Positions 1,421 through 51,910 of a DNA stretch of 64,000 bases are shown here, in pieces. The notes under the pieces were generated by a model. That model was not told the origin of the DNA, did no database searches, and saw only the letters and a list, made by a program, of their open reading frames with translations. Positions within the stretch are counted from its first letter, which is position 1. Each line of letters begins with the position of its first letter. This stretch comes from a virus, in IMG/VR virus record IMGVR_UViG_3300044680_000280, positions 1 to 64,000 of that record; one strand, 5' to 3'. The position numbers and the translations under genes were made by a program.

Positions 1421-1427
1421 TACACCG
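1421..1427 (-). promoter_or_regulatory. CGGTGTA element, 10 nt before the ATG at 1410
   Basis: TCGGTGTA on the minus strand. It lies in the 55-base divergent spacer, where the hexamer AATCGG also occurs twice. This is one of the few copies not beside an upstream stop codon. Confidence 0.6.
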
Positions 1428-1465
1428 ATTAAATTTTATCCGATTGGAAAACACTACTTGAGATC

Positions 1466-1723
1466 ATGCGATTTTTACCGATCCTCAAGTTTTTGATCGC
1501 TGCCGTGACGTCCGTTTGCATCGGAGCTGGATACCGTGCATATCAGCTCCGAGATGGCAGTTCCCTGGATGAGGACATCGTGATGTACCTCGTCTGGACG
1601 GGAGGCATCTCGTTCGCCGTCCTCGTCCTCGTCTATCTAGCGTCGTACCGCTCCGAACAGCGCTACCGAATCATGGTGGACAGCCTCTACTCATCTCGTC
1701 CGCCGCCCCTAAAACTCAAGTGA
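1466..1723 (+). CDS. Small two-span membrane protein
   Basis: 85 residues on the plus strand, divergent from 1183-1410. Two hydrophobic segments are visible: residues 4-23 (start LPILKFLIAAV) and about 39-60 (core VWTGGISFAVLVLVYL), with a charged loop between them and a basic, Pro-rich tail. This is the usual shape of a small inner-membrane protein. No strong ribosome site (TTGAGATC before the ATG). Its end overlaps the convergent HD-domain gene by 8 bases. Function unknown. Confidence 0.6.
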   Translation: MRFLPILKFLIAAVTSVCIGAGYRAYQLRDGSSLDEDIVMYLVWTGGISFAVLVLVYLASYRSEQRYRIMVDSLYSSRPPPLKLK

Positions 1724-2351
1724 GCTTATTGAGAGATCGAGTGATGTTCGCCTGAGCCATCGATTCGTAGTTTGCCCGAAATACGTCCGTCTCGTAGATG
1801 TAGGGCCTCTTCAGAAAGTCGATGAGTACCTTGGCACGACCTGCTCGGAACACGTTCTCTGGGACGAACGAATACTCGTATCGAACTCCCTTTTCATATT
1901 CATCAAAAATGGCTTCATTCTCCCCCAAGATCGAAAGATCGACGTCAACCAGGAAGAGATATCGTTCGTGCATTCCCCCAAGCTCCGCGGAATGCCTCGT
2001 GTACGGGATCATATCCATTACATCAGCGATAAACCGCTCTTTGAGGTCCATTCGCCGACCCCAACGTTGAAATTCAAGGGCGCTCTTCACCTCGTTGTCC
2101 GTTCGACCGGGAACGTAGACGAGGTCATGCCAGAAGATTGCCATATCGACCCAGGGCTTTACCTCTGAGGGCACGTGCTTGTCCGAAACCTCGAGACACG
2201 CTTTGATGTGCGAGAGAGAATGGTACATACGTGACGACGCGTCATACGACGGCACAAGCTCTTCCAAAAAGGCCTTTTCCGAAGGTAGCGTCTTCGCCCC
2301 CAAAGACTTTGTGAGGGTCATCCACCGCTTTTCAAGCTCCTCAACCAGCAT
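1716..2351 (-). CDS. HD-superfamily metal-dependent hydrolase
   Basis: 211 residues from the ATG at 2351, chosen because GAGGAG lies 7 bases upstream and because it overlaps the end of the preceding gene by 11 bases; the open frame continues 18 codons further. Motifs match the predicted HD phosphohydrolases of COG4339: Y-H-S-L-S-H-I followed by I-F-W-H-D-L-V-Y with a R-T-D-N-E ... S-A region after it. The His and HD pairs would bind the metal. The substrate is unknown; nucleotides are usual for this superfamily. It could act with the dNMP kinase downstream. Confidence 0.75.
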   Translation of the reverse strand: MLVEELEKRWMTLTKSLGAKTLPSEKAFLEELVPSYDASSRMYHSLSHIKACLEVSDKHVPSEVKPWVDMAIFWHDLVYVPGRTDNEVKSALEFQRWGRRMDLKERFIADVMDMIPYTRHSAELGGMHERYLFLVDVDLSILGENEAIFDEYEKGVRYEYSFVPENVFRAGRAKVLIDFLKRPYIYETDVFRANYESMAQANITRSLNKLT

Positions 2352-2703
2352 CGTCGTTCTCCTCGGCAAAAACCTGAGACGCCAGCTTGTCCATATGCTC
2401 GTCAACGAGCTTCTTCATGTGAGCTTCGATGGTCTCAAGAGCAGAACGAAGGGGTGCGACGAACTCGGAACTCATGTGAATCTTCTCGAATCCGGACAAT
2501 GAATTGACGTAAACCTGAGCCGCAAAGCAAAGTTCCCGAAGCTTTTCGACCTCGCCAAACTGCCCCACGGATTTGCCGAATTTGTCGACGTCCTCGGGCG
2601 TCGGGTCGACGGTGACCCTCAAGTTCACCGTCACCAGTGCCGGGGTCACGTCGAGAACGATCTTCGGCTCCTCGGGTACCCTGAAACGTGGCTCGCTGGG
2701 CAT
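2341..2703 (-). CDS. Hypothetical protein of about 120 residues
   Basis: Acidic, mixed alpha/beta composition, with an N-terminal stretch rich in Val and Pro (KIVLDVTPALVTVNLRVTV) and a helical C-terminal half. No family recognised. The frame also allows a TTG two codons upstream (2709); the ATG at 2703 is preferred because it sits 10 bases after a CGGTGTA element, the spacing seen elsewhere. Its stop overlaps the HD-hydrolase start. Confidence 0.6.
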   Translation of the reverse strand: MPSEPRFRVPEEPKIVLDVTPALVTVNLRVTVDPTPEDVDKFGKSVGQFGEVEKLRELCFAAQVYVNSLSGFEKIHMSSEFVAPLRSALETIEAHMKKLVDEHMDKLASQVFAEENDDAG

Positions 2704-2712
2704 ACCCAAAGG

Positions 2713-3981
2713 TTACACCGAGCGGCGGAGAACGGCCCGAACGGCTTCCCTGGCGGTACGATCGGACGCGACTTTGACGTCAGGCATGATGAGATTCAGC
2801 CAGTGTTTGACGATGGGCTGCACTGTAGCTGGACCGTACCCGACCAGCAAACCCATCACCTCGCAGAATGATTCTTCAACGTTCTTTCCACCGTAACCCG
2901 TGATGGGATGCTTGACGGTAACGAACTTGACCCCATCAGCAAGAAGCTTCTCGAAGTCTTCCCTCGTATTGAATTCAACTCCGCCCGATCGCGCTTGCCC
3001 GTGAGCTATGACGTCAACTTGAAGGGCTAAGAGTGGGTCCACGTCCACGAGTTTTTCTACGAGTTCATGAGCCCAAGCGCCTTCTGGCCAGACCTTCAAA
3101 AGCTTGTCAACGTCAAGAGGTTCGGCATCGTCGCTAATTGCTTTTGACCAGAACGTGCGGTCCGCCTCGCTCAGGTACACCTTGTAGATGTGGTGCCCCA
3201 TTTCATGGGCAATAACGTGAGCCACGATATTTGGATTCTTGTGATCAAAGAACCCGCCCATAGCGATTTCAATATGATCCCCCTCATACCTACCGCCCTC
3301 GCCCATGGTAACATATGCATTCAGTCGAATGGGCAGCATATGCTGTAGAAGCCAGGGAAATACCTGTTTTGCACGGCGTCGAAAAACCCTAAGTCCTTCC
3401 TTGAAACGTTCCAAGAAGCCGTCTTCGTCATTCTCATACCCGACGACTGAAACATGAAAGCCCTCCATCTCGACTTTCTCAGTGTCCCGGGTTTTCACCG
3501 TGTAGTTAGGGGTGCCCGTGACTCGTTCTCGGTATTCCACGAACTCCTTCATCTCTTTCCAAAAGAGCCGTGCCTTCTCCTTTACCTTGGCTGCCCACTT
3601 GTCCTTCTCCATTTCGAAGCTGGCAAACAACGACTCCTGAGACTGAGGATTGTACTTGCTATCCGGGTACCCAAGAGGGAGATTGAGTTCAATTGAAAAA
3701 TCCCACCCGGTCTTCCGAAGCTTGTCACCGTACCACTTACGGTCCGATTCAGAGACCTTGTCATCATACTTGAAGTCGTGATTGAGAAAGGTCTCGAAAA
3801 CGATATGGTCGAAGTTCTTACGAAAGGCTTTGACACCGTCCCGAACCTTGTCCGCATCCTTGTAGCTTTTGATGCGAGGAATGTTCTTCATGAGTGTGAG
3901 AAAGTCCTTACGCAGGTTCTCAATCCACTCGAGGTCCAACGTGATGTCCTTCGCCACTCGGCGATCATAGCTGTACGTCAT
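2713..3981 (-). CDS. Zincin-type metallopeptidase-like protein (HEMGH)
   Basis: 422 residues. H-E-M-G-H at 259-263 within AHVIAHEMGHHIYKVYL is the zinc-binding helix of gluzincin-like peptidases. Further on, G-K-N-V-E-E-S-F-C-E-V-M offers a downstream Glu as third ligand, the same E-x-F-[AC]-E pattern found in the genes at 10101 and 44010. The N-terminal 200 residues are helical and charged. No signal peptide, so it probably acts in the cytoplasm or is packaged. Target unknown. The start ATG overlaps the HNH gene stop (ATGA). The stop TAA lies inside a CGGTGTAA element. Confidence 0.75.
   Translation of the reverse strand: MTYSYDRRVAKDITLDLEWIENLRKDFLTLMKNIPRIKSYKDADKVRDGVKAFRKNFDHIVFETFLNHDFKYDDKVSESDRKWYGDKLRKTGWDFSIELNLPLGYPDSKYNPQSQESLFASFEMEKDKWAAKVKEKARLFWKEMKEFVEYRERVTGTPNYTVKTRDTEKVEMEGFHVSVVGYENDEDGFLERFKEGLRVFRRRAKQVFPWLLQHMLPIRLNAYVTMGEGGRYEGDHIEIAMGGFFDHKNPNIVAHVIAHEMGHHIYKVYLSEADRTFWSKAISDDAEPLDVDKLLKVWPEGAWAHELVEKLVDVDPLLALQVDVIAHGQARSGGVEFNTREDFEKLLADGVKFVTVKHPITGYGGKNVEESFCEVMGLLVGYGPATVQPIVKHWLNLIMPDVKVASDRTAREAVRAVLRRSV
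2714..2720 (-). promoter_or_regulatory. CGGTGTA element, 10 nt before the ATG at 2703
   Basis: TCGGTGTA on the minus strand. The upstream gene's TAA stop (2715-2713) is formed by the last bases of the element plus one. Confidence 0.6.
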
Positions 3982-4310
3982 ACCGCCTCGTCAAGGAGTA
4001 GGTCGTCCGAACCACGCTCGTCGGACTCGTCAACAAGAAAACCGCCGTGCATCCCCTCATGAACTTCTCGGTGGCAGCGGCAGCATAAAAGCACGCACTT
4101 TTCGAGCTCGGGGCGGATACGTTCCCAGGAAGTCATTCGGTCCGAAATCGTGAAGTCTTTCTCGAGCGGATTCACATGGTGAAAGTCAAACGCGGCGGGC
4201 GTCCCATCATAGGTACATATCCTACACCGACCGCCAAGGTGGGCTACCGCCATCGCCCGTAAATCAGTCCGGCGTTTGTGCGCCGCTCGCCTCTTCTCCC
4301 AAGCTCCCAC
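3978..4310 (-). CDS. HNH endonuclease
   Basis: Carries the small phage/bacterial HNH layout: L-G-G-R-C-R-I-C, then F-D-F-H-H-V-N-P, then C-V-L-L-C-C-R-C-H-R-E-V-H. Two CxxC pairs bind structural zinc and the HH / H pair forms the nuclease centre. Start uncertain: GTG at 4310 keeps the basic helix that normally precedes the first CxxC; ATG at 4253 would remove it; the open frame reaches 4394 but would run into the divergent RNase HII gene. May be a homing-type or packaging-associated nuclease. Its stop overlaps the next gene (ATGA). Confidence 0.75.
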   Translation of the reverse strand: MGAWEKRRAAHKRRTDLRAMAVAHLGGRCRICTYDGTPAAFDFHHVNPLEKDFTISDRMTSWERIRPELEKCVLLCCRCHREVHEGMHGGFLVDESDERGSDDLLLDEAV

Positions 4311-4317
4311 GAGGAGG

Positions 4318-4324
4318 CGGTGTA
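4318..4324 (+). promoter_or_regulatory. CGGTGTA element on the plus strand, 11 nt before the RNase HII ATG
   Basis: The only sense-oriented plus-strand copy at a gene start, in front of the rnhB-like gene. It shows that the element follows gene direction rather than DNA strand. Confidence 0.6.
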
Positions 4325-4335
4325 ACAAGAGGACT

Positions 4336-5046
4336 ATGGCGGATCTTGACCCACGGAAGGTCGCGGAATATAAGGCTCGAGCCGAAGAGCTCATCCGTGA
4401 ACGGTCCCCGGATTACCTGATCGGCGTGGATGAGGTCGGCTACGGACCAATCGCAGGGCCGGTCGTAATCGGCGCCGTGGGCGTGCCCGTCGATTGGACG
4501 CCACCCACGGGCCTTACTGACTCCAAAAACCTCTCCAGAAGGCAAATAATAACCTTGGCGGGGGCGTTCTACGACGAGGTCCTCTCACGGGGGATTGGGA
4601 TCAAGTACGCCCTTTTCTGGGGCGACTCCGAAGAGATCGACAGAGACGGACTCGGAAAGGTCCGTAAGGGACTTCTTCAGTCCGGGGTGGAGTACATCCG
4701 GAGCACGTATCTCGAAACGGAGCCTTTCACCACTCTAGCTATCGTCGACGGCAATCTCAACATTCCGAATGCGGTCAGCATCCCGAAAGCCGATCTTGTG
4801 TGCCCCGTGGTGTCCATGGCCGCCGTCCTTGCCAAGTGCGCCCGTGACACATGGATGATCAACGTCGCGGCCAAAAAGTACCCGGGGTACGGTTTTGAGG
4901 AATCTGTCGGATACGACACACTCGAGCACCGCAAGGCGATCAAGGCTCTAGGTCCGTGTCCGATCCATCGGATGAGCACCCGGACCTTGAAAGAACGAGA
5001 CGTCTGGTCTCAACTCCCCAATCTAGGGAGAGGGGGAAAGTCATGA
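4336..5046 (+). CDS. rnhB: Ribonuclease HII
   Basis: 236 residues from the ATG at 4336 (GAGG 4 bases upstream; a longer frame from 4276 has no such site). Family motifs: G-V-D-E-V-G-Y-G-P-I-A-G-P near residue 30, T-D-S-K-N-L-S, and the C-terminal M-A-A-V-L-A-K-C-A-R-D. The first motif reads DEVGYG instead of the common DExGRG, so one conserved Arg is a Tyr here. The enzyme would cut RNA in RNA:DNA hybrids, e.g. primer removal. First gene of a plus-strand pair with dam (ATGA overlap). Confidence 0.88.
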   Translation: MADLDPRKVAEYKARAEELIRERSPDYLIGVDEVGYGPIAGPVVIGAVGVPVDWTPPTGLTDSKNLSRRQIITLAGAFYDEVLSRGIGIKYALFWGDSEEIDRDGLGKVRKGLLQSGVEYIRSTYLETEPFTTLAIVDGNLNIPNAVSIPKADLVCPVVSMAAVLAKCARDTWMINVAAKKYPGYGFEESVGYDTLEHRKAIKALGPCPIHRMSTRTLKERDVWSQLPNLGRGGKS

Positions 5047-5900
5047 AATCCTTGATCAAGTGGGTCGGTGGGAAGACACAGCTCCTGCCCGAGCTGCTCC
5101 GTGTTTTTCCCAAATCCATTGAGAACTACTACGAACCGTTCCTCGGGGGAGGTGCTGTCTTCTTCGCTCTGGCTTCCTCCAAAGAACACCCGTTCGTAAT
5201 GGCACACCTGAACGATCTCAATGAAGAACTGGTCAACACGTACACTCAAGTCGCACATGACCACGAACGATTGTGCCTCCTGCTCACCCAGTGGAAAGAG
5301 ATGTACCTGAAGGATCCAAAGACCTTCTACTACGACGTTCGAAAGGACGACCCCAAGACGATGCTCCCGCTCGACCGGGCGGCTCGGTTCATCTTCCTCA
5401 ACAAGACGGGTTTCAACGGGCTCTACCGCGTAAACAAGTCGGGCGGGTTCAATGTCCCGTGGGGCAAACACGAGAACCCGACCTTGTTTGATCAGGACAA
5501 CATCGAGGCATGCTCCCGCGTTCTACGAAAGGCCAAAATCACCTCGGGGGACTATACAAGGATTTTGGACCGGGCGGGCATCGGAGATCTCGTCTACTTC
5601 GATCCTCCGTACGTGCCCCTCAACCCAACCTCAAACTTCACATCGTACACCTCGGACGGGTTCACTATCGAGAATCAGAAGCAGCTCGCCAGCACCTTCA
5701 GGGAGCTCTCAGACCGAGGCGTTCACGTCGTGCTGTCCAACTCGGATACCGAAGTCATCCGAGATTTGTACAAGGAGTTCGCCATTTTGACGATTTTCGC
5801 CCGTCGAGCGGTCAACAGCAAGGGGAGCGGCCGAGGACCCGTGAACGAAGTTCTGGTCTTGTCGAAAACGGCATCCGAAACTTTTGAGGGGACGATCTAA
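5043..5900 (+). CDS. dam: DNA adenine methyltransferase (Dam / D12 class)
   Basis: 285 residues. Start taken at the ATG overlapping the rnhB stop, because the family begins K-W-V-G-G-K-T-Q-L-L-P-E-L directly after it. SAM-binding motif Y-E-P-F-L-G-G-G-A-V-F-F near residue 35 and catalytic D-P-P-Y in D-L-V-Y-F-D-P-P-Y-V-P-L near residue 185. Typical Dam proteins methylate adenine in GATC; specificity here is inferred only from family. It may protect phage DNA from restriction. Confidence 0.88.
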   Translation: MKSLIKWVGGKTQLLPELLRVFPKSIENYYEPFLGGGAVFFALASSKEHPFVMAHLNDLNEELVNTYTQVAHDHERLCLLLTQWKEMYLKDPKTFYYDVRKDDPKTMLPLDRAARFIFLNKTGFNGLYRVNKSGGFNVPWGKHENPTLFDQDNIEACSRVLRKAKITSGDYTRILDRAGIGDLVYFDPPYVPLNPTSNFTSYTSDGFTIENQKQLASTFRELSDRGVHVVLSNSDTEVIRDLYKEFAILTIFARRAVNSKGSGRGPVNEVLVLSKTASETFEGTI

Positions 5901-5901
5901 G

Positions 5902-6138
5902 ATGGGTAACGAAGAGAAGGGCACTTTTGGTGCCTCATGCGATGGCTCGGTTCTGTTAGCCGAGCCTCAGTACGACGTGGACGGCACCATCCTCGACAAC
6001 GGCATCCAACTAATAGGAAACGCGACTAGGCAGTCGAACGGACTCTATACGTCTCTTGCCAATGTGAACGGCTCTTTATGTACCGTTGAGTTCAAACTGA
6101 CAACAGCGATTAGACCTTCGGTGGTTTCGGAAACTTGA
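5902..6138 (+). CDS. Hypothetical 78-residue protein
   Basis: Follows dam by one base, with GAGGGG upstream of the ATG. The composition suggests a small beta-rich protein (G-S-V-L-L-A-E-P-Q-Y-D, N-G-S-L-C-T-V-E-F-K-L-T). No family recognised. The end overlaps the convergent metallopeptidase gene at 6110 by 29 bases, so the last codons should be treated with caution. Confidence 0.55.
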   Translation: MGNEEKGTFGASCDGSVLLAEPQYDVDGTILDNGIQLIGNATRQSNGLYTSLANVNGSLCTVEFKLTTAIRPSVVSET

Positions 6139-6478
6139 GCAGAGCATTCCGGGTGAGTAGGTCATAGAGAACGGGCTCAAGGAAACTGACCACCATCTCC
6201 TCTCGGAACCATCGAGTCTCGAGCAAGTTGCCTCCCAGTACCGAATACTTTATGTCCCCGGAGTGTGGGGAGAAGCACACGTGCAGTAGCTCGTGCAGAA
6301 GTTTCATCTTCATAAAGTTGTCGTCTGGGCCCCAGGTGACCTCAATGCAATTGTTGTCCGAGTCGTAGAGAGCGTCGGCCACATTGCCGTCATCATCCTT
6401 GAGGACCCACTTGACGACGTAAACCCGGAGTTCGCCGCGTTGGGTCTGTAGCTTCACCCATATACGACGACCCCTCAT
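6110..6478 (-). CDS. Small HExxH metallopeptidase-like protein
   Basis: 122 residues from the ATG at 6478 (AGGGG 8 bases upstream; the frame extends another 55 codons but those overlap the membrane-protein gene). H-E-L-L-H in LLHELLHVCFSPH is the zinc helix; a later F-R-E-E-M-V-V-S-F-L-E helix may give the third Glu ligand. The N-terminal half is a beta sheet (I-W-V-K-L-Q-T-Q). Smallest of five HExxH proteins in the window. Substrate unknown. Confidence 0.7.
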   Translation of the reverse strand: MRGRRIWVKLQTQRGELRVYVVKWVLKDDDGNVADALYDSDNNCIEVTWGPDDNFMKMKLLHELLHVCFSPHSGDIKYSVLGGNLLETRWFREEMVVSFLEPVLYDLLTRNALLKFPKPPKV

Positions 6479-6486
6479 GACGGCCC

Positions 6487-6669: not shown

Positions 6670-6692
6670 GTCCCTAAGCTTAGCACCAAAGG

Positions 6693-8021: not shown

Positions 8022-8046
8022 TGGCGCTCCGTCTTGGGGTTTGGTC

Positions 8047-8068: not shown

Positions 8069-8128
8069 ACGTAGATGAAACTGTCGTATTGATTAGAGGT
8101 TCATCGACGAATTTCACACTCCCAAATG

Positions 8129-8162
8129 AAAAAGGGCTCGTCGGATGTTCCGACGAGCCCTT
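8129..8162 (-). terminator. Rho-independent terminator after the glycosyltransferase gene
   Basis: On the minus strand a 12-bp perfect stem (GGGCTCGTCGGA with its complement, extendable by two A:T pairs) and a 3-base loop are followed by TTTTT. It sits 29 bases beyond the glycosyltransferase stop and would end that transcript before the phosphoesterase gene. Confidence 0.85.
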
Positions 8163-8168
8163 ACACCG
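8162..8168 (-). promoter_or_regulatory. CGGTGTA element directly before the terminator
   Basis: TCGGTGTA on the minus strand, after the glycosyltransferase stop and abutting the 5' arm of the terminator. No start codon lies within 100 bases downstream. Confidence 0.4.
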
Positions 8169-8190
8169 ACCCGAAATCGTAATCGTCAGA

Positions 8191-9309: not shown

Positions 9310-9316
9310 TACACCG
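9310..9316 (-). promoter_or_regulatory. CGGTGTA element 39 nt before the glycosyltransferase start
   Basis: ACGGTGTA on the minus strand in the 99-base gap before 9270. Here the gene has its own AGG-type ribosome site, so the element is separated from translation initiation. Confidence 0.45.
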
Positions 9317-15240: not shown

Positions 15241-16238
15241 AAGTTGTTCCCATACACCGACGGTGCCCGCTCGAATTCTTCAATGAGGTACTCAATCACG
15301 GCGTAGGGATTACCCGTGTTGGGGTGCAGGGTAATGTTGAAGCCGGCCGCCTTCGTATGCCCGCCGCCCCCGTATAACTTGGCGAGCGCCGAACAATTGT
15401 ACGTTGTGCGACTCCGTGTAGAAACAACCATCTTGGTGACCCGACCTTGATCGGTATCCTCCTCGAAGAAGCTAAATCCTGCCGCAAGGTCAGCGTCCGA
15501 ACCGATATACTCCGCTACGCTGCTTGACTTCGTGGACCCCTCGAAGATTGCGACGCGAGTTCCCCGACTCGTAGTAAAGCGACGGGCCCCTTTCACCGTT
15601 TTTTCCGTGGATTGGTCATCTTTTTCAATGAGTACCTCCCCCACCCACTGAAATTGGGCTCGCCAGTTCTCACTAATGTCAGAAAGGTACATCTTCGACC
15701 AACGTTCCCACGGCATGAAAGACAGAACCTCTTTTTGAGCTCGAGCTTCCTCCCAAAATGGCGATTGCCGTTGCCAGGTATCGTAGACTCCAGCCAACAT
15801 GGCAAAGCGTTCGGCGAACAAGGACAGCCGATCAAATGAAGCCACGTGAATACAGGGGTCATCACGACGATAACCCCTCAAAACTTTCCAAACTTCACGG
15901 AAGGCGAGCGTTGCCCCACACACTCCTGGGTTTTCCAACTCATCAGCAAACACTCCCCGGTTCCCGAACTTGGCAACCGTCTCCTTTGCCGACTTGTGGT
16001 GGTCGAGCACGATGGCGCCCGCGTCAACGAACTCCTGTGCCCGTTCAGGTGGAGGAGAAAAGTCGACGAACAGCATCCCGGGTTCCGCTTTCATATTGCG
16101 GTACTCGTCGTTACCGTATTGGTGAAAGAGAATCTCTGCCGTAGGAATGGCGTCGTGGATCAAAATCGCAGAGGCCTTGCCATCTGCACAGTTGTCGTGA
16201 CTGATGACAACTTTGATACCGCTGAGGTCTAGGGTCAT
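15237..16238 (-). CDS. DHH-family phosphoesterase
   Basis: 333 residues. N-terminal S-H-D-N-C-A-D-G-K-A-S-A, then F-V-D-F-S-P-P-P, then V-L-D-H-H-K-S-A (the DHH motif), and C-terminal Y-G-G-G-G-H-T-K-A-A-G-F (the DHHA1 glycine-rich loop). This order is that of manganese-dependent nanoRNase/exonuclease-type DHH proteins, which cleave short oligonucleotides or cyclic dinucleotides. In a phage it could recycle nucleotides or remove signalling dinucleotides; that part is inference. A CGGTGTA element lies 10 bases before the ATG and AGGGGG just before it. Its last codons carry the element of the next gene. Confidence 0.85.
   Translation of the reverse strand: MTLDLSGIKVVISHDNCADGKASAILIHDAIPTAEILFHQYGNDEYRNMKAEPGMLFVDFSPPPERAQEFVDAGAIVLDHHKSAKETVAKFGNRGVFADELENPGVCGATLAFREVWKVLRGYRRDDPCIHVASFDRLSLFAERFAMLAGVYDTWQRQSPFWEEARAQKEVLSFMPWERWSKMYLSDISENWRAQFQWVGEVLIEKDDQSTEKTVKGARRFTTSRGTRVAIFEGSTKSSSVAEYIGSDADLAAGFSFFEEDTDQGRVTKMVVSTRSRTTYNCSALAKLYGGGGHTKAAGFNITLHPNTGNPYAVIEYLIEEFERAPSVYGNNL
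15253..15259 (-). promoter_or_regulatory. CGGTGTA element, 12 nt before the methyltransferase ATG at 15240
   Basis: TCGGTGTA on the minus strand, inside the last codons (Ser-Val-Tyr) of the DHH gene. Confidence 0.55.
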
Positions 16239-16248: not shown

Positions 16249-16255
16249 TACACCG
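16249..16255 (-). promoter_or_regulatory. CGGTGTA element, 10 nt before the DHH gene ATG at 16238
   Basis: TCGGTGTA then AGATAGGGGGT and ATG on the minus strand, in the 25-base gap after the SAM methyltransferase stop. Confidence 0.6.
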
Positions 16256-19691: not shown

Positions 19692-20231
19692 CTATACACC
19701 GCCCAACAGAGTTTGAAGTACCCGAAGATGCCTTTTATCAAGGTTGCCCGCCTTGATATTCGTGAAATTGCAGGCTTTCACCTGGTAACAAGTAGCTTCT
19801 ACCCCCGGTCCAGCCTTCAAACCATCGCAATTTTCACACCTAGATGTCCCGAAGTTCAACCGAAACCTGAATTGGGCCGCCTCATGCTGAACCTCGCGGT
19901 AGTGCCTAATGAGCTCTTCCGCTGCCCTGTATACCCTCGTGGCGTCTCCTGTTTTGAAAGACTCTAATAGGTTTTCGGCTAGGTCTTCTTGGTCGGGAAC
20001 TCCCGTTGAAGGTCCACCGGACAGATGATCCCCTGTCTTCGTAGATACTGTTCGACCCGTCCCTCCGCGTTCGCCGCCATCAGTCCCGACAACCTCGGAT
20101 CCTTCGTCTTCTCGGCGAGATCGATTGCCGACCTCATGAGGCTCTGCCATTCGTCGTGGGTTTTGGCCGCTCGAATGGTGGATTTTTTGCCGGGAAGGGA
20201 CTTCAGACGAGGGCGGTTGACCATGACTCAC
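19692..20231 (-). CDS. ORF with uncertain start; C-terminal 95 residues look real
   Basis: The frame from a GTG at 20231 (overlapping the previous TGA) is open for 179 codons. The first 80 codons cover the complete 81-residue gene at 19979 in another frame and are Ser/Gly/Arg-rich, like a shadow. The last 95 (E-L-I-R-H-Y-R-E-V-Q, then C-E-N-C-D-G and C-Y-Q-V-K-A-C) look like a folded four-Cys protein, but no ATG or GTG lies between the 19979 stop and this part. A frameshift from the upstream gene or a rare start codon may explain it. It ends Gly-Val-stop within a CGGTGTATAG element. Confidence 0.45.
   Translation of the reverse strand: MSHGQPPSSEVPSRQKIHHSSGQNPRRMAEPHEVGNRSRREDEGSEVVGTDGGERGGTGRTVSTKTGDHLSGGPSTGVPDQEDLAENLLESFKTGDATRVYRAAEELIRHYREVQHEAAQFRFRLNFGTSRCENCDGLKAGPGVEATCYQVKACNFTNIKAGNLDKRHLRVLQTLLGGV
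19695..19701 (-). promoter_or_regulatory. CGGTGTA element, 38 nt before the ATG at 19656
   Basis: GCGGTGTATAG on the minus strand; the TAG is the stop of the upstream frame. Confidence 0.45.
19979..20224 (-). CDS. Hypothetical 81-residue protein
   Basis: ATG at 20224 with AAGAGGAA about 8 bases upstream. Basic, helical: K-K-S-T-I-R-A-A-K-T-H-D-E-W, then Y-L-R-R-Q-G-I-I-C-P-V-D. No family recognised. It ends K-K-T-stop, and the likely protein of the adjacent frame continues 1 nt out of phase. Confidence 0.6.
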   Translation of the reverse strand: MVNRPRLKSLPGKKSTIRAAKTHDEWQSLMRSAIDLAEKTKDPRLSGLMAANAEGRVEQYLRRQGIICPVDLQREFPTKKT

Positions 20232-22371: not shown

Positions 22372-23249
22372 CCCTCAGAAGATACACCAGCGGCGTCTTC
22401 GAGGGCTTCCCTAATCGTATCCGGATCCAAATCTTTGAGTGCTTTCGCCGAAATGGCGGCGATGAGAGCCTGAAAAACCTCATCCTGAGTGGGGGGCCGG
22501 TCGTCTTTCGACGCGAGGCGCTCCATGAGCTTTGAGACCAGCTCGACCGAGTGGTGACCGATCTCCCCAAACTCGTGTAGAGTGGGTAGGTGCTGTAGGT
22601 GCTTCGTGACCGCTTTGACCGCGATCTTCTTTGCGGTAGAGCTAACGAACGAGCTCATCACGCCCTTCGTGATGGCAACGGCGCCCGCTCCAAGACCGAA
22701 CCCCGCCCCTAAGGCCCCTGAAACTGCCGCAACCGTACAGTGGATGGCCACTTCCCGTATGGCGTGCTTTTGCTTCTTGGAGACTTCCTTGCCGGTCATC
22801 CAAGCATGGATGCCCTCGCCCGCCTCCTTGAACTCCTTGACCTCATGTTTGGCTACATTGTAGGCACTCTCGACGTATTTCATCGGGGCGCTCAGAATCG
22901 ACTTGTGCGCCTTGAGTAGAGTTTCTCGACGATGATCCTCATCATCAACGAATTTTTTGACGGTCGACGGGGTCTTGTGGAGGAACTCCTGGGCCTTCGA
23001 GGACAGACTCTTTGCCAGGTCCTTCCAAGTCAACTTAGGCCCGGCACCGTGTTCGTGCTCATCGTGCTCGACACCGTGACCTCCGTCCGTCTTCTTTTCA
23101 GAAATCTCCCCCGGCTTCTTGACCGTATGATTTTTCGGGTCCGCCTTGGGATGTTCGTGCAGGTAGTCCTTCAGCGCCTTTGGAGTCGGAAACTCGAAGG
23201 CGAGCTGGTAACGAGCCGCCACACGCAGACTCAACACGTCCCTACGCAT
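22368..23249 (-). CDS. Tagged hypothetical protein with a hydrophobic segment
   Basis: 293 residues starting M-R-R-D-V-L-S-L-R-V-A-A-R-Y, one of the shared N-terminal peptides. Residues 28-75 are charged (H-P-K-A-D-P-K-N-H), the middle is helical, and residues about 165-200 form a Gly/Ala-rich hydrophobic stretch (A-L-G-A-G-F-G-L-G-A-G-A-V-A) that could insert into a membrane. GTG at 23237 is an alternative start. No homologue recognised. Ends within the start of the DUF1848-like gene. Confidence 0.65.
   Translation of the reverse strand: MRRDVLSLRVAARYQLAFEFPTPKALKDYLHEHPKADPKNHTVKKPGEISEKKTDGGHGVEHDEHEHGAGPKLTWKDLAKSLSSKAQEFLHKTPSTVKKFVDDEDHRRETLLKAHKSILSAPMKYVESAYNVAKHEVKEFKEAGEGIHAWMTGKEVSKKQKHAIREVAIHCTVAAVSGALGAGFGLGAGAVAITKGVMSSFVSSTAKKIAVKAVTKHLQHLPTLHEFGEIGHHSVELVSKLMERLASKDDRPPTQDEVFQALIAAISAKALKDLDPDTIREALEDAAGVSSEG
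22383..22389 (-). promoter_or_regulatory. TGGTGTA element, 11 nt before the ATG at 22371
   Basis: Inside the last codons (Gly-Val) of the upstream tagged gene; TGAGGG follows before the ATG. Confidence 0.5.
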
Positions 23250-24469: not shown

Positions 24470-24476
24470 TACACCA
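24470..24476 (-). promoter_or_regulatory. TGGTGTA element, 4 nt before the ATG at 24465
   Basis: Closest copy to a start codon in the window; CCC separates TGGTGTAA from the ATG, so no G-rich ribosome site fits between them. Confidence 0.45.
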
Positions 24477-26534: not shown

Positions 26535-26541
26535 TACACCG
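26535..26541 (-). promoter_or_regulatory. CGGTGTA element, 11 nt before the clpX-like ATG
   Basis: CCGGTGTAAGTAAGAAGAG then ATG on the minus strand, 29 bases after the upstream stop. Confidence 0.6.
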
Positions 26542-29535: not shown

Positions 29536-29542
29536 TACACCG
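29536..29542 (-). promoter_or_regulatory. CGGTGTA element, 11 nt before the folA ATG
   Basis: Stop TAA of thyA, then CCGGTGTAGGTAGACCATT and ATG; the entire 19-base gap is the element plus spacer. Confidence 0.6.
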
Positions 29543-30508: not shown

Positions 30509-31333
30509 CTACACCTCTGAGAGACCGTGCTTGATCATCTTCCGAACGAAATCCGCTTGGCGAAGTTCCCTAACGCACAAGGTCGGGTCTGCCGGGTATG
30601 ACTCTGCTATAGCCTGACATGAGTCACACACATTGATGTACGGTCTCTCGTACGTTGCTGGCTGATAACAGATTCCACACTTCGTGAGGAGTTCGGCCGC
30701 CATCTTGAGGTCATCTTTCAAGTTCTGAATTTGACGATGCGCCGAGAGGTCGTAGTGCCGCGTCCCCGAGAAGTTTTTGACCCGTTCAATAACGTGAGCC
30801 CAGTCACGTACTCGGTACTGCTCCTCAACCGGTATATTTCGTGTGTGAAAAGTCGGCCACACCATTGCGAGACCGTGCGGGTGATGTTCGTGCCAAGTGT
30901 AAACGTTCGACGGTTTGTCATCTAGGCAGATATCGGCGTCCACGAGATACTTGGCCGCCGTGTGAACTACGTGCTCATGCCGTTTGAACCCGAAGTGCTT
31001 CTCGAGCCACGCGTCTCGCTCGTAAACCCAATGCCGCGAATCGAATGGGGAGGTCACGACAAACAGATCGACGTGTCTGCGTAGCTCCTCGACGGCCTCC
31101 TGTGACCCGGCACGAATGGGTAGGGACCAGCAAAAGCCTTGAGACCCCGCGATTTCAAAGAGAATCTTGTTCTCCTCGGGGGTGAAGATATCGAACACGT
31201 CCCAAGACGTGCCAGGATGGTCGAAAAGGTCGATTTCCTTGTGGAGAACCTTTCGGGCAATATCGAGAATCGCCATTCGGTACTCATTAAGTACCTCATC
31301 CACGTCAATCCACATTCGTTTGCGGGGCTTCAC
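30509..31333 (-). CDS. HAD-family 5'(3')-deoxyribonucleotidase-like protein with zinc-ribbon tail
   Basis: 274 residues from a GTG at 31333 that is 10 bases after CGGTGTA. HAD motifs: W-I-D-V-D-E-V-L at the front (D8 region nucleophile pair), V-V-T-S-P and D-I-C-L-D-D-K-P-S-N. This is the pattern of the phage/mitochondrial deoxyribonucleotidases that dephosphorylate dNMPs. A C-terminal C-G-I-C ... C-D-S-C ribbon is extra. It could remove dUMP or regulate dNMP pools with thyA. Confidence 0.75.
   Translation of the reverse strand: MKPRKRMWIDVDEVLNEYRMAILDIARKVLHKEIDLFDHPGTSWDVFDIFTPEENKILFEIAGSQGFCWSLPIRAGSQEAVEELRRHVDLFVVTSPFDSRHWVYERDAWLEKHFGFKRHEHVVHTAAKYLVDADICLDDKPSNVYTWHEHHPHGLAMVWPTFHTRNIPVEEQYRVRDWAHVIERVKNFSGTRHYDLSAHRQIQNLKDDLKMAAELLTKCGICYQPATYERPYINVCDSCQAIAESYPADPTLCVRELRQADFVRKMIKHGLSEV
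30510..30516 (-). promoter_or_regulatory. AGGTGTA element, 9 nt before the thyA ATG
   Basis: GAG-GTG-TAG: the last codons and stop of the deoxynucleotidase form the element; AGGGGG follows before the ATG. Confidence 0.5.
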
Positions 31334-31343: not shown

Positions 31344-31350
31344 TACACCG
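31344..31350 (-). promoter_or_regulatory. CGGTGTA element, 10 nt before the GTG at 31333
   Basis: CCGGTGTAGGAATAGGGT then GTG, five bases after the upstream TAG stop. Confidence 0.6.
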
Positions 31351-34680: not shown

Positions 34681-34687
34681 TACACCA
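34681..34687 (-). promoter_or_regulatory. TGGTGTA element, 10 nt before the AAA ATPase ATG
   Basis: TGGTGTATGGGTATCTC then ATG; located 12 bases after the hairpin at 34699. Confidence 0.55.
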
Positions 34688-35363: not shown

Positions 35364-35939
35364 CTATACACCGGGAGTCGAGCGGAATCGTACTTTTGAT
35401 CCAGGACTCACGACCTTTTCGTTGGTCTTCTCCGGTTCAGCTACCTCCCAAGCGTCCTTCTTTTCCTGGGGGAGAACATTTCCCACCATACGGGGTCCCT
35501 GATCCGGAGTATTCAACGTTGGCAAACGGATGAGCTGAGAACGTTCGAGCTTTAGTGGATGAGCTGGGACTGGGAACGGTTCAGCTACGCCTTTCGTTTC
35601 AGTCTGAATAGAAGCGGGCTTGACCGCTTCCTTGTCGTTCAGATCTCGAGGATCCACCCACGAGGAGGTCCAAACCTCGGGCGCCGGACCAGGATCGATC
35701 ATGAGGAACTTCTTCCCCGAAATAGTCTCGTAGCGTGAATCGCTAGGGTCCAGCCTCGGTGGATTGGCGAAAAGGTTCTCGTACCAGGAACCAACACGCT
35801 TTTCGAACTTGCTTTGACCAACTCGACTCCTCGTGCACTCCGTCTGCATGCATCGATCGCAGAAGGTCATCTTGAACTGGTCAAGAGGAACGTTCTGATC
35901 ATTACACACCTTGAGAAGGTCACTTCTATTCGAGGGCAT
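35364..35939 (-). CDS. Hypothetical protein with a Cys zinc knuckle
   Basis: 191 residues; TTAGGG before the ATG. C-D-R-C-M-Q-T-E-C near residue 27 suggests zinc binding. The last 120 residues are Pro/Glu-rich with little predicted structure. It ends T-P-G-V-stop within CGGTGTATAG. Function unknown. Confidence 0.6.
   Translation of the reverse strand: MPSNRSDLLKVCNDQNVPLDQFKMTFCDRCMQTECTRSRVGQSKFEKRVGSWYENLFANPPRLDPSDSRYETISGKKFLMIDPGPAPEVWTSSWVDPRDLNDKEAVKPASIQTETKGVAEPFPVPAHPLKLERSQLIRLPTLNTPDQGPRMVGNVLPQEKKDAWEVAEPEKTNEKVVSPGSKVRFRSTPGV
35367..35373 (-). promoter_or_regulatory. CGGTGTA element, 42 nt before the DUF2997-like start
   Basis: CCGGTGTATAG: the last two codons and stop of the upstream gene make the element. 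Confidence 0.45.
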
Positions 35940-43996: not shown

Positions 43997-44003
43997 TACA
44001 CCG
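43997..44003 (-). promoter_or_regulatory. CGGTGTA element, 11 nt before the SNF2 ATG
   Basis: TCGGTGTAGGTGGCTTCCG then ATG; six bases after the upstream TGA stop. Confidence 0.6.
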
Positions 44004-44009
44004 AGATCG

Positions 44010-46562: not shown

Positions 46563-46586
46563 AAATAGGGGCCACCATAAAAGGAA

Positions 46587-46781: not shown

Positions 46782-49700
46782 GAGTCCCTCCTCGACAGGG
46801 TGATCGTTGCGGGATTGGTGTCAAGGCGAACATTGTCGTTCAGGACAGGATGTCCTTCGATACGGTAGAGGTCCGCTGCCGAGTATCCCTCGTTCGCGCC
46901 GTTCGTTCCGATGTAAACGAACGCCGGGTGGGGATTGTTGTCCGTCAACTGCTGAACGTTCGTCAAAACGAGTAGCATGAGCTCGTCGCCAGCACTGACC
47001 TCGTTTCCTCCAACGGAGGTTACCGCGTTGCGAACGAGCATCGCGCGACCAGCTAGTACGTTCGAGTGGCTGGCTGGAGCCGTTACGGAAGTGTATTCTG
47101 CTGCCACTTCCCCGCCCGGGTGTGCCCCATTCATGGTAAAGAGAGATCCCCCTCGATTGACGCGGAAATTCACGAGGAGGTTGTAGCTGACTGGTTCCCC
47201 GTCGACCTGAGCCACCAAATCACCGGCAGTGCCAGACGCCACGGAAGCTGTATCGAGAGGAACCTCGATTTGTTCGTATTGGGTGTTCGAGGTAAGGTTC
47301 GAACGAGAAGACGCCTCTCCGTGAGCTCCAAGATAGAGGAGCGGTGCAAAGGTGCCATTACCCAAACTACCGCCTCGGAAGTCCTTGTCGCGCCACAGGG
47401 CGCCCAAGGGAAGCCTTTCGGTAGCTCCTAGGTACTGTGTCCCGACCTCGGTCGTGTCGTCCGCTAGGGCGCCGACGAGAGTCGTGGGACGCGCCTGACC
47501 TGAGGTCGAGGGCGGGTACTGGGAGGGGTTCTCGTAACCAACATTACGGAAGTCCATCGAAGTTGCAGAAGCAACGTCCCCAGAAAATCGACCCGTACCC
47601 ATCGTGGTGACGAACCCAACAGACGCGAGGACCTCGAGAGCCTTCTGGTTCGGTCGAGTCAGTGCGGTCTCCGTGAGCTCCGTGGAATCGACCTGGTAAG
47701 CGCTAGCGGTCTGAATCGGGCCTAGGTACTGAGGAATGTCGACGTAGTTTGTTTGGCTGCCCCACGGATCGCCCTGGTAGGGGGTCCTGGAATAGTTGAC
47801 CAAAACGGTGTCGGTTGGCGTTGCAGGGCCTGGGAGAACGCTCGTCGGACCCGAAATACTGACCCCGATGTTCGAGGCTCGTGTCACGGTGTTACCAGCC
47901 TGTGACGTCTGACGCGACCTGGAAAGAACGAAACGAGGCTCCTGGGTGATGTCGAACGTCCCTCGGTCGAAGCCGAAGACGCTAGCCTCGATGACGTAGT
48001 TCCCGCTGGAGAAGCTCGTAATCGGGTTGACCGTGGAACGTGTGATATCGATGCAATCGGCGTTCAAAACGAAGGTTGAGTCGCCGTCCGCATCAATTTC
48101 GATCCAGAACGTCGCCGTGCTGACATTTTGGCGAAGAAGGTTCGTTGCGGTCGTACCCGTTTTGGGAGTACGATCCGTGCCGTTATAGGCGGAACCGTTG
48201 AGCTTGTAATCACCCGCTTCGTAAACGGCGAAGAGCCGAGCGATCCCGTAGAAGGGCGGAAGCTGTAGACCTTGACGGTTCAGATTGCGTGTATCCGAGA
48301 AGAACTGCATGCCCGCGCCCGTTAGGCTGCCAGGCAGGGAAACCGCCGTGTTGTATGTTGCGACGGGGAACGGAGAGGACCCACTGAAGTTGGCCGTGGT
48401 GAACACAGCCCACGTGAGGCTTCCGGAGGCAGCATAAGAGACGTAATTGCTATCTCCCGTTGCGGGTGATGCGTACTCACCCGAAAGGAACATGAAGTTG
48501 ATACCCTCGGAAAACGTCGTTGACGCCGCGTTGACGGGCAGAATCGGAACGTCGACTTCACCCCAGTTGGGGACCATCGAACGTGGGAGGGTGACATAAA
48601 TGTTCTTCGTGTTCAAGTAGCCTGTTGAGCTGAAATCGGTTGAGCACGAAAAGAGTCCGAGAGGGTCCGTCGTAGTCCACTTGGACGTGACACCGTCCGC
48701 CGCCTTGGTGGGCATCAATCCTTGAGCGAGGGTAACCGTATAGCTAAGAGAGGAGCCTGTCGGAACAGAACGGTCAAGAACGACGTGTCCGCTGTCCGTG
48801 TAAGAAACGATGGTGTAACGCCCGGGTTGTGAACCGTTCGTGATTTGAAGGGCATATCCGACTTGACCGCTTGTAAATGCCGCAGCAGTCGTATCCGCAA
48901 AGGTCGTCGACCCGTTGGCCGTACCCGTCGAACTTGTGACAACTGGCGATGGAGGAGTGAGCGCGGGGTTGTAGGAGCTTGCGACGTTCGCTGCCGTACC
49001 ATCGAGCGTGATGAAGGACGTCGGCCAAATGATCTGACGGAACGGCGCGATGATAGCGGTTTTGCTTCCCAGATCCGCGTAAAATGTGGCCGTAACGGGA
49101 AGATTTCGCTTGTATAGGGCGTTCGTTGTATTTCCGCCTCGGTAACGACTCCAGAGAGGGGCCCAACCAATCTTGGCCGGAAAATTCGTTGAGGGAACGC
49201 CCGCGGTGTTGACAAGGAGTTCGGACGCGGGGGAGACGAAAGTCATACTTTGAATGCTGTTCGGCCGACGGGCAAGTCCACGTCCGGGTCCGTACTGCAC
49301 GTGCAACGTGACGTAGATCTGATTTGCCGTTGCGGGGAAGCCCCCACCAAGTGTGACGACAAGGTTCGTATTTGGAGCCCCGCCCCCGGTTACCGTGTAC
49401 AAACTCGTCGGAACGTTCTCTTGTTGACCATCGATTCGAAGGGTAACGGCTGAGCTCAAGCTGTCATTGACCCAACGGATTTGATCGGTATCCGAACCAG
49501 GGACCGACGTTTGAAGAGCAGCAATCGGGAAAGTGAAAGAGTCCCCGGCACTGAACATGCTGGATGTTGCCTGGACCGTCTGGGTTGCCGTGACTGACAG
49601 GGAGTAGCCAGTATTGCTCACCGTGGCGGGAGGGACAGATCCAGTCGGCTGAATAACGGTTTCGATCTTTTGAATGACGGCAGCGTCTGAGAAAATCTGT

Positions 49701-51130
49701 CGGAATCCATCGGGAGCATCGAGTTCCGTGATGCCAAGTCCGGCTGTGTTCTGCGAGATCTTGTCTTGATAAACGACGTAAGGCCCTTGAGGACCCGCAC
49801 CCGTGCGCTTCCAGGTCGAACGGAGTGTGCCTCGAAGGAGTTTATCGAGGTTCGTGTCAAGCAGAGCCTGGTAATCGAACCCGTTGGGGTTGACCACGTG
49901 ACGAAGATCGAGAAGGTCCGTGAAGGCGATTTGGTCCGAAAAAAGTCCGTCGGGGCGAGTTGAAATGACCGAGATGGTCGACCCTGACGCGTGGGCGTCC
50001 GCCCGCGTGCCATTGACGCCTCGAACGAGACCGCTGATCGTAGTCCCCGTGATGGCGGAATACGTCAAAAGCTCGTCGCCGATTTGAATCAGAACGGCGG
50101 TCGCAGGAGTTGCGGGTAGCGGGATGTTCGTGGCGCTGACCAATGTCGCCATCGTGGCAGTCGAGGAGATGGTAGCGGAGAGAGTCGGAACCGTTGAAAA
50201 TGTCGCGATACCCGTACGATCCACAGCGAGAGGATTGCGATTGAATCCACCGTTCAGATTCTGAGAGGGGTCACCATTCCAGTTCACCGAGTTTCGACGG
50301 AAAACACCCGCAAGCGGAATCGCGTAGGTGTAGCCGTCCACCGTACCGAGAGCGTTCTGGGTGCCGTCGCCAGCTCGCCAAAGACCCGGGTCTCCTAGCG
50401 TAGAACGCATGTTCGTGAACGTATAGTTCGTCGCGGATGAGGCGGCACCCTGACCGAAAACCACCGTCGGGTCGAATCCATCGGGATTCGTCGTGAGACC
50501 AACGAGCCCCTTAGCAACCCGAATACGGTACTGAACCTGCACTCGTTCCGTCGTCTCGAAACCGAGTTCCGGATCGATGAGATCGTCGGCGAGGTAGGAG
50601 TACCCTCCCTCCACATTGCCGTATTTGTAAACGGCAGAGCTAGAAGGTTTGTTCGTTGCACTGGGATTGGGGGCGAGCTGCGCAAGCCAAACTTCGAGAA
50701 AAACGAAGTCCACGCGAGAGTCGCCGCTGTTCGAGGGTGGGGGATCCATCGCGATGACGTTGTACGTGTCCACGTCGTCTGGAGATCCAGGAGGAGTGCC
50801 CGTGCGGGTGCCCGTGACCGGAATCAACCAACCGTTAACCACGGCCCATTCGACGGCCTGAACCTCTCCTGTTCGCTGACGGCCAAAACGCCACCAATTG
50901 CTATACGTGGAATTCGTGATGAAAGAAGTCGGGTTGTTCATCTCGTTGCCGAGCCAACCTGAGACCGTGTCACGAAGAACGATCTTTCGGCGCCAACCGG
51001 TCGCGAGATCTTGCAGCAAAGTGAGCTCGGAATCGAGCGGTGGTTTACCTTGCTGCCAAATGACATCCAGGTATTGGGTGGACGACGGGTCCAACACTCG
51101 GGAAACACCTGAACCGTAGTAAAGAGTCAT
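46778..51130 (-). CDS. Large virion structural protein (baseplate/tail-fibre type)
   Basis: 1450 residues. The N-terminal 70 residues (D-P-S-S-T-Q-Y-L-D-V-I-W-Q-Q-G-K-P-P-L-D-S-E-L) match the start of the protein at 54306. Residues 310-390 resemble a phage repeat with G-D-E-L-L-T-Y-S-A-I-T-G and R-G-V-N-G-T-R-A-D-A-H-A-S-G. Ser/Thr/Gly-rich beta domains fill the rest. GAGGAATG before the ATG. No known receptor-binding domain seen. Confidence 0.75.
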   Translation of the reverse strand: MTLYYGSGVSRVLDPSSTQYLDVIWQQGKPPLDSELTLLQDLATGWRRKIVLRDTVSGWLGNEMNNPTSFITNSTYSNWWRFGRQRTGEVQAVEWAVVNGWLIPVTGTRTGTPPGSPDDVDTYNVIAMDPPPSNSGDSRVDFVFLEVWLAQLAPNPSATNKPSSSAVYKYGNVEGGYSYLADDLIDPELGFETTERVQVQYRIRVAKGLVGLTTNPDGFDPTVVFGQGAASSATNYTFTNMRSTLGDPGLWRAGDGTQNALGTVDGYTYAIPLAGVFRRNSVNWNGDPSQNLNGGFNRNPLAVDRTGIATFSTVPTLSATISSTATMATLVSATNIPLPATPATAVLIQIGDELLTYSAITGTTISGLVRGVNGTRADAHASGSTISVISTRPDGLFSDQIAFTDLLDLRHVVNPNGFDYQALLDTNLDKLLRGTLRSTWKRTGAGPQGPYVVYQDKISQNTAGLGITELDAPDGFRQIFSDAAVIQKIETVIQPTGSVPPATVSNTGYSLSVTATQTVQATSSMFSAGDSFTFPIAALQTSVPGSDTDQIRWVNDSLSSAVTLRIDGQQENVPTSLYTVTGGGAPNTNLVVTLGGGFPATANQIYVTLHVQYGPGRGLARRPNSIQSMTFVSPASELLVNTAGVPSTNFPAKIGWAPLWSRYRGGNTTNALYKRNLPVTATFYADLGSKTAIIAPFRQIIWPTSFITLDGTAANVASSYNPALTPPSPVVTSSTGTANGSTTFADTTAAAFTSGQVGYALQITNGSQPGRYTIVSYTDSGHVVLDRSVPTGSSLSYTVTLAQGLMPTKAADGVTSKWTTTDPLGLFSCSTDFSSTGYLNTKNIYVTLPRSMVPNWGEVDVPILPVNAASTTFSEGINFMFLSGEYASPATGDSNYVSYAASGSLTWAVFTTANFSGSSPFPVATYNTAVSLPGSLTGAGMQFFSDTRNLNRQGLQLPPFYGIARLFAVYEAGDYKLNGSAYNGTDRTPKTGTTATNLLRQNVSTATFWIEIDADGDSTFVLNADCIDITRSTVNPITSFSSGNYVIEASVFGFDRGTFDITQEPRFVLSRSRQTSQAGNTVTRASNIGVSISGPTSVLPGPATPTDTVLVNYSRTPYQGDPWGSQTNYVDIPQYLGPIQTASAYQVDSTELTETALTRPNQKALEVLASVGFVTTMGTGRFSGDVASATSMDFRNVGYENPSQYPPSTSGQARPTTLVGALADDTTEVGTQYLGATERLPLGALWRDKDFRGGSLGNGTFAPLLYLGAHGEASSRSNLTSNTQYEQIEVPLDTASVASGTAGDLVAQVDGEPVSYNLLVNFRVNRGGSLFTMNGAHPGGEVAAEYTSVTAPASHSNVLAGRAMLVRNAVTSVGGNEVSAGDELMLLVLTNVQQLTDNNPHPAFVYIGTNGANEGYSAADLYRIEGHPVLNDNVRLDTNPATITLSRRDS

Positions 51131-51166
51131 TTACATTCCTCGCACTTGTCGGGGTTATCAGTAAGT

Positions 51167-51173
51167 TACACCG
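51167..51173 (-). promoter_or_regulatory. CGGTGTA element, 36 nt before the structural gene at 51130
   Basis: TAG stop of the gene at 51177, then CTCCGGTGTAACTTACTG on the minus strand. Confidence 0.5.
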
Positions 51174-51176
51174 GAG

Positions 51177-51845
51177 CTAAAAGATCAAAGCCCACGACCC
51201 AACGAAGAGTTTCGAGGGGGTATTGTTGGTAATTTGCACCGAAAAGTTCATTCCCTGGTCGGCGGATGGGATGCTGAAGTCCATGGAGTCGGAGATTGGT
51301 AGATAGGTCACTCCGTTATTGAAGCTCACCTGAGCCGTTGTGTTTCCAGGAGAGGTTGGAATTTCATTGTACATTCTCGAATACCGCCCACCGGACGGAT
51401 CGGAATCGATGTACGAAAAGACTTCCCACGTAAAAACCCCGTTCGTAGGCGCTTCCGTAAGAGTGGCAGTCGAGGTAAGGGTACCGCCGGGATTGATCCA
51501 AATCGAGCCCCGATCCCCCAACCCTCCCGACGTAACGGTAACGCCCGTCGTAGAAAGCATATCGTTGAATGTGATGTAGGGGTAGCCTGCAAACGCACTG
51601 AGCAGACCCGTGTACTTTTTGGCGAGTAGGTCCCCCAAGTTTTGAGGAATTGACGGTTGAAGAGTTACAGGATCGATGAGAGCCGCGTTGTTTGGGACTC
51701 TCACAACGAAAGCTCCATTCACGAGTGTCTGGCCGCTCGGAGAATTGTCGACGGCAATGATCGGCGCCCCCTCGAATGGAGGCGATGATGGTGGGGCCAC
51801 CGTCGCAACGGTCGAAAATAGGTCTATGAGGTAGTGGGAGCTCAT
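51177..51845 (-). CDS. Structural protein of 222 residues
   Basis: Beta-rich, with V-D-N-S-P-S-G-Q-T-L, G-G-L-G-D-R-G-S-I-W-I-N-P and a closing I-T-N-N-T-P-S-K-L-F-V-G-S. Low Cys and no charge clusters, similar in character to phage neck/fibre accessory proteins. No family named. Placed between two long fibre-like genes. Confidence 0.65.
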   Translation of the reverse strand: MSSHYLIDLFSTVATVAPPSSPPFEGAPIIAVDNSPSGQTLVNGAFVVRVPNNAALIDPVTLQPSIPQNLGDLLAKKYTGLLSAFAGYPYITFNDMLSTTGVTVTSGGLGDRGSIWINPGGTLTSTATLTEAPTNGVFTWEVFSYIDSDPSGGRYSRMYNEIPTSPGNTTAQVSFNNGVTYLPISDSMDFSIPSADQGMNFSVQITNNTPSKLFVGSWALIF

Positions 51846-51903
51846 GTATACTCACTCGGGGTTGCAGGTGACGGACTGCACTCCGTTTCGTAGATTTTTA
51901 AGC

Positions 51904-51910
51904 TACACCG
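51904..51910 (-). promoter_or_regulatory. CGGTGTA element, 58 nt before the ATG at 51845
   Basis: TGA stop of the fibre-like gene, then TCCGGTGTAGC on the minus strand. Farthest copy from a start. Confidence 0.4.

Follow-up and report, generated by a model that had tools for sequence, protein, structure and literature searches.

The stretch of DNA analyzed here (the window) comprises bases 1 to 64,000 of the 406,734-bp virus record IMGVR_UViG_3300044680_000280, labelled G000, whose gene content (DNA polymerase, helicases, tail fibre, baseplate wedge, portal, and terminase) identifies it as a phage. A short element, CGGTGTA or a variant differing in the first base, stands upstream of a number of genes in this window. 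The initial annotation considered three explanations for it, namely a promoter core with very short leaders, an RNA-processing site, and a translation element, and our analysis of five related phages (G000, G003, G007, G010, and G013) favors the first of them over the other two. Gene starts were taken from a simple hexamer-based caller, for which runs with and without a Shine-Dalgarno bonus agreed.

Copies of CGGTGTA in the window and across the record

Re-reading of the window bore out GGTGTA at 9 to 12 nucleotides (nt) upstream of all 12 starts listed in the initial annotation, always in the sense orientation; the preceding base is C in nine cases, T in two, and A in one. On the plus strand, CGGTGTA (4318–4324) lies 11 nt, measured here and below as the gap between the end of the hexamer and the start codon, before ATG 4336 of an RNase HII gene. 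On the minus strand, it is found at 1421–1427 (10 nt before ATG 1410 of a 75-amino-acid [aa] open reading frame), 2714–2720 (10 nt before ATG 2703, overlapping the stop codon of the gene at 2713–3981), 15253–15259 (12 nt before ATG 15240, DNA methylase), 16249–16255 (10 nt before ATG 16238, a gene with a weak DHHA1-domain match), 26535–26541 (11 nt before ATG 26523, ClpX-like), 29536–29542 (11 nt before ATG 29524, DHFR), 31344–31350 (10 nt before GTG 31333, NT5C-type nucleotidase), and 43997–44003 (11 nt before ATG 43985, SNF2 helicase). TGGTGTA occurs, on the same strand, at 22383–22389 (11 nt before ATG 22371, DUF1848) and 34681–34687 (10 nt before ATG 34670, AAA ATPase), and AGGTGTA at 30510–30516 (9 nt before ATG 30500, ThyA). 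The element is also present at the reciprocal-best-hit start of the methylase gene in G003, and it is kept at the G003 orthologues of the genes starting at 16238 and 43985 and at both the G003 and G007 orthologues of the ClpX-like gene. The automatic caller agreed exactly on 8 of these starts. It missed those at 1410, 22371, 31333, and 34670 or placed them elsewhere, and these four are plausible, though not backed by an independent call. An additional TGGTGTA (24470–24476, minus strand) stands 4 nt before ATG 24465, the gap originally reported, and is uncertain, being off the usual spacing.

Five further minus-strand copies of CGGTGTA have their next start 36 to 58 nt away, as had been described. 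For three of them we predict leadered transcripts: 9310–9316 (39 nt before ATG 9270, which is preceded by purine-rich CAGGAAATCAGG), 19695–19701 (38 nt before ATG 19656, preceded by GGAG), and 51167–51173 (36 nt before ATG 51130, preceded by GAGGA). The copy at 51904–51910 lies 58 nt before ATG 51845, and that at 35367–35373 sits at the stop codon of 35364–35939, 42 nt before start 35324. The minus-strand CGGTGTA at 8162–8168 has no start at the usual distance and stands directly against a strong hairpin with a T-run (T5). Speculatively, a transcript beginning ~10 nt past this copy would start in the 5′ arm of the hairpin, which could thus end read-through from upstream without stopping the new transcript.

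GGTGTA was counted 34 times in the window versus 17.0 expected from dinucleotide shuffles, and 0 of 100 shuffles reached 34. Counts over the full record are 180 for CGGTGTA and 28 for the reversed word, and 120 of the 180 copies are intergenic, though intergenic DNA makes up 13% of the record. The initial annotation had put the association with starts far above chance, and indeed GGTGTA lies 9 to 12 nt before 95 of the 528 called starts of the record, the mean for a hexamer being 0.5. Among the 102 G000 cases having a gap of 8 to 14 nt, 85 have a gap of 10 or 11 nt, and at start-linked places with gaps of 6 to 18 nt GGTGTA was counted 150 times versus 10 to 16 for each of six permuted hexamers. 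An equal rate inside coding frames and at junctions, proposed beforehand as the outcome that would speak against the element, is not what we observed; its density per kb per strand is 1.10 between genes and 0.085 inside genes, a 13-fold difference. The consensus is Y-GGTGTA (Y, pyrimidine), with weaker AT-rich positions directly downstream and an AT-rich block ~24 nt upstream. The claim that long structural genes go without the element stood as a trend, since it is frequent among the nonstructural genes of G000 and occurs at 1 of 46 genes in the block at 46–132 kb, which includes tail-fibre and baseplate proteins; the one gene with it there (record 94562–100459) is a long gene of 1,965 aa.

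Probable transcriptional role, second class of sites, and predicted leaderless mRNAs

The element is also found upstream of noncoding RNA genes. CGGTGTA begins 52 nt upstream of the G000 transfer-messenger RNA (tmRNA) gene (224741–225104, minus strand), and TGGTGTA lies 22 and 25 nt upstream of the tmRNAs of G003 and G007, i.e., the element accompanies the tmRNA in 3 of 3 phages tested. Three transfer RNA (tRNA) genes have it 26 to 40 nt upstream, and reversed or rotated words used as a control for tmRNA and tRNA genes gave 0, 1, and 0 hits. In total, G000 carries 38 tRNAs and the tmRNA (tag ANDNGIPDLAIAA), most of them within a cluster at 218–246 kb.

In addition, the first genes of codirectional runs are enriched in the element (128/428 versus 242/1,901, p = 2e-16, five phages) and depleted in Shine-Dalgarno words (p = 8e-8). 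Conservation in related phages, which the initial annotation had named as possible support, was found at orthologous G003 starts (11/19 versus 8/163, p = 3e-8), where the neighboring upstream sequence is not recognizably similar, yet the element is kept.

These distributions bear on a reading in which GGTGTA would serve translation, as an atypical ribosome-binding site or enhancer held at a constant distance from the start codon. The very tight spacing of 10 to 11 nt would suit such a role, and GGTG could pair with CACC of the 16S tail, but this pairing would set the Shine-Dalgarno register ~14 nt from the ATG, and the base preceding the core is C or T, not A. The copies at tmRNA and tRNA genes and the opposite trends of element and Shine-Dalgarno words at first-of-run genes also speak against it, as do the extra Shine-Dalgarno words that accompany long-gap copies and the existence of a sister class with a −35-like box (both described below). 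Overall, we regard a translation element as very improbable.

A search of the starts without the element uncovered this sister class. We refer to sites with a GGTGTA core and no conserved −35 as class 1 and to those with a TGTA core and a −35-like box as class 2. In G000, class 2 reads TTGAAC-N16/17-TGTACT or TGTATT, with 30 sites at 22 to 23 nt, start to start, and 0 to 3 sites at each of the other spacings; its box, here GGTTGAAC, stands 16 to 17 bp before TGTACT/TGTATT, and the start codon usually follows exactly 6 nt past the hexamer. The relatives have TTGATT-N16-TGTA (G003, 16 sites), TTAAGA-N15-TGTA (G007, 38 sites), and TTGATC-N16-TGTA (G013, 90 sites). When the boxes of G000, G003, and G007 were looked for in one another's genomes, no comparable peak appeared. 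The inter-hexamer spacers of 15 to 17 bp in these four phages agree with the distance of a −35 box (about 16 to 18 bp before the −10). Some class 2 promoters predicted at ~197–201 kb of G007 (e.g., at the starts of 199468–199593 and 199887–200156) unite both core words, having a GGTTAAGATC box before CAGGTGTA rather than CACGTGTA.

The sequence logos give GGTGTA and TGTAnT rather than the sigma-70 consensus hexamers TTGACA/TATAAT. An operator, at which a phage repressor or activator overlaps an ordinary host promoter, would account for a highly conserved word of 6 to 7 bp in weaker surroundings, and the phage encodes several helix-turn-helix (HTH) proteins. Such an arrangement is nevertheless hard to credit, as no conserved TATAAT or TTGACA accompanies the class 1 sites, the distance to the start varies by no more than 1 to 2 nt, and in class 2 the TGTA core recurs together with a −35-like box.

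Setting TGTAnT at −12 to −7 would put the class 2 boxes near −35 and, with the usual 8 nt between TGTA and the start codon, the codon at +1. In class 1 the start codon comes 9 to 11 nt after TGTA, and the RNA might begin as much as 3 nt ahead of the codon; alternatively, the register might lie two bases later, with TA at −12/−11. The usual bacterial initiator has a pyrimidine at −1 and a purine at +1. A pyrimidine precedes the start codon in 95 of 97 class 2 genes with short gaps (98%, p = 7e-23) and in 195 of 261 pooled class 1 genes (75%, p = 2e-11; 84% in G000 alone, n = 95), the background being 53% without the element and 50% with long gaps. This bias at short-gap genes would be expected of an RNA whose first base is the A of AUG. 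Shine-Dalgarno words precede 8% of short-gap genes versus 48% of long-gap genes (p = 6e-15) and 38% of genes without the element, and ATG is the start codon of 90% of genes with the element versus 76% of those without it. The regain of Shine-Dalgarno words at long gaps is not forced by the position of the element. Pooled p values of these tests are optimistic because related genes are counted as independent although the phages share ancestry, and the same pattern is visible in G000 alone. At short-gap genes, the RNA would probably start at, or within ~3 nt of, the start codon, with no room for a ribosome-binding site.

The same data bear on GGTGTA as an RNA-processing site, where an endonuclease would cut polycistronic mRNAs as RegB of T4 does. 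The fixed distance to the start and the several copies that overlap stop codons within gene runs would be compatible with processing, but first genes next to a gene on the opposite strand, where there is no upstream cistron to process, are enriched in the element, a pyrimidine precedes the start codon, and class 2 has its box 15 to 17 bp upstream of the TGTA hexamer. We therefore consider cleavage very unlikely. Terminators provide no boundary evidence, because a simple scan of the genome found 44 and placed none just upstream of an element. The promoter is favored because noncoding RNA genes carry the element, first genes of runs are enriched in it, class 2 has a −35-like box, a pyrimidine occupies −1, and Shine-Dalgarno words return at long gaps.

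Candidate reader of the element and weight of the evidence

In G000, neither a PF00623 match nor, in six frames, a DFDGD-type motif pointed to a phage multisubunit RNA polymerase, although very divergent subunits could escape such a search, and pieces of RpoB, RpoC, and RpoD used as queries had no match in this genome. No PF00940 match indicative of a single-subunit RNA polymerase was obtained in G000, and control genomes were likewise without a match. A sigma-type mechanism with the host RNA polymerase is more likely than a phage RNA polymerase, and reading of the element by a host sigma factor alone is possible. Neither of two bacterial-genome scans, with the sigma-like protein described below and with ThyA as queries, found relatives.

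G000 encodes three proteins with sigma region 4 (187892–188530, 395783–396883, and a weak one at 187454–187726). The first matches PF04545 (E = 1.9e-15) over two stretches and has two tandem region-4-like HTHs; it is 80% identical in G003 and present in all five phages, and its structural model (predicted local distance difference test score, 68) resembles sigma domain 4 (target template-modeling score, ~0.8; Foldseek E, ~0.1). Its co-occurrence with the element suggests a link between the two. More specifically, GGTGTAN8-11ATG is enriched in most large contigs with this sigma-like protein (e.g., 82 versus 4, 65 versus 4, 50 versus 0, and 25 versus 1), some of which may be one virus from several samples, and the enrichment is weak in LR745208 (29 versus 11).

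A NusG-like gene adjoins the double region-4 gene (189468–190430 in G000, 238409–240385 in G003, and 332606–334423 in G007). The G007 NusG-like protein is fused to a flap-endonuclease-like domain, the two being separate genes in G000, and lengths of 658 to 681 aa suggest the same fusion in G003, G010, and G013. G003 (301449–301847) and G010 (198403–198771) encode further small proteins that have a sigma-region-4-like stretch at the C terminus and the motif CPWVSCK in common. Ribosomal protein L7/L12 is encoded in G003 (271599–272012) and G007 (142683–143039), and none was found in G000.

We consider it highly probable that CGGTGTA is a promoter core of the bacterial-RNA-polymerase type, with predicted leaderless mRNAs, in G000 and its relatives. 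The motif, spacing, classes, conservation, and Shine-Dalgarno and initiator patterns are sequence statistics, from which we infer the transcriptional role and the leaderless mRNAs in vivo. In the mechanism we propose, class 1 would act like an extended −10 element with no conserved −35, and transcription would begin at the start codon or up to ~3 nt before it, giving leaderless mRNAs chiefly for nonstructural (early- or middle-type) genes. The same core would drive the tmRNA and some tRNAs and, where it lies farther from the start, would give ordinary leadered mRNAs. The host RNA polymerase might read the element with a phage sigma-like factor, the leading candidate being the conserved double region-4 protein.

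Several observations weigh against this interpretation. In G003, G013, and G010, the preference of class 1 for a pyrimidine at −1 is weak (61 to 67%), and class 1 lies 2 to 3 nt farther from the ATG than class 2, so its leader might measure 0 to ~3 nt. The Shine-Dalgarno deficit at short gaps is partly forced because the element fills the Shine-Dalgarno position, and duplex energies of the last 10 nt before the start did not differ between groups. TGTA is unlike TATAAT. At orthologous starts in the more distant G007, the element is kept in just 1 of 17. Sigma region 2 was not found (no PF04542 match in the whole record), and two contigs with the sigma-like protein (G019 and G020) show no enrichment of GGTGTAN8-11ATG.

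Relation to known systems and significance

Literature searches returned no relevant title or abstract on CGGTGTA as a phage promoter. In Deinococcus-Thermus, leaderless promoters with the "−10 region adjacent to ORF" carry the motif TANNNT (PMC12340547), and the sites described here would resemble them in that a −10-like motif precedes the open reading frame by a few bp at a required spacing, the Shine-Dalgarno sequence is absent, and the −35 is dispensable. However, TANNNT is read by host RpoD in host genes, whereas the word here is GGTGTA and occurs in phages, where the second class carries phage-specific −35-like boxes. Class 1 of G007, GGTGTA-Y-GGT, can be read as the Deinococcus-Thermus TANNNT with an upstream extension.

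Thermus phage phiYS40 has middle and late promoters with leaderless mRNAs (review PMC3594737), and like it, G000 is predicted to make many leaderless mRNAs alongside leadered ones. The leaderless class of phiYS40 is middle/late, whereas the element here goes with nonstructural genes and is seldom found in the structural block, and host and phage lineage differ. The jumbo phages AR9 and phiKZ (PMC5312081) also have phage-specific promoter words throughout a giant genome; their promoters are read by phage multisubunit RNA polymerases, none of which was detected here, and AR9 leaders measure 26 to 491 nt compared with the 0 to 3 nt predicted here. In T4, late gp55/gp33, and in group 2 jumbo phages, HTH-only minimal sigma factors (PMC7824862), are likewise small sigma-region-4-type proteins thought to redirect the host RNA polymerase; unlike them, the protein described here has two tandem region-4-like HTHs and no detectable region 2. 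As far as the literature searched shows, the novelty lies in the word, in its grammar of two classes, and in the conservation seen among huge metagenomic phages, whereas leaderless phage mRNAs and −10 motifs abutting open reading frames are known.

We tentatively put forward a broader scenario, although we find it rather doubtful, in which a clade of huge phages uses a double region-4 sigma-like protein without region 2, perhaps together with a host sigma factor or an unseen region-2 partner, to steer the host RNA polymerase toward −10-like cores of the GGTGTA/TGTA type. The −35-like boxes would vary among relatives while the −10 stays, and about one-fifth of the genes would be leaderless, which could explain part of the lack of Shine-Dalgarno sequences that has been reported for some huge phages.

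For huge phages known here from metagenomes alone, the analysis offers a readable grammar of predicted promoters, with two classes, from five related genomes studied in detail. It may allow predicted leaderless genes to be separated from leadered ones and start-codon annotation to be corrected, and it indicates a conserved candidate transcription factor. It would also provide a testable reason for the lack of Shine-Dalgarno sites at some huge-phage genes (compare PMC7162821).

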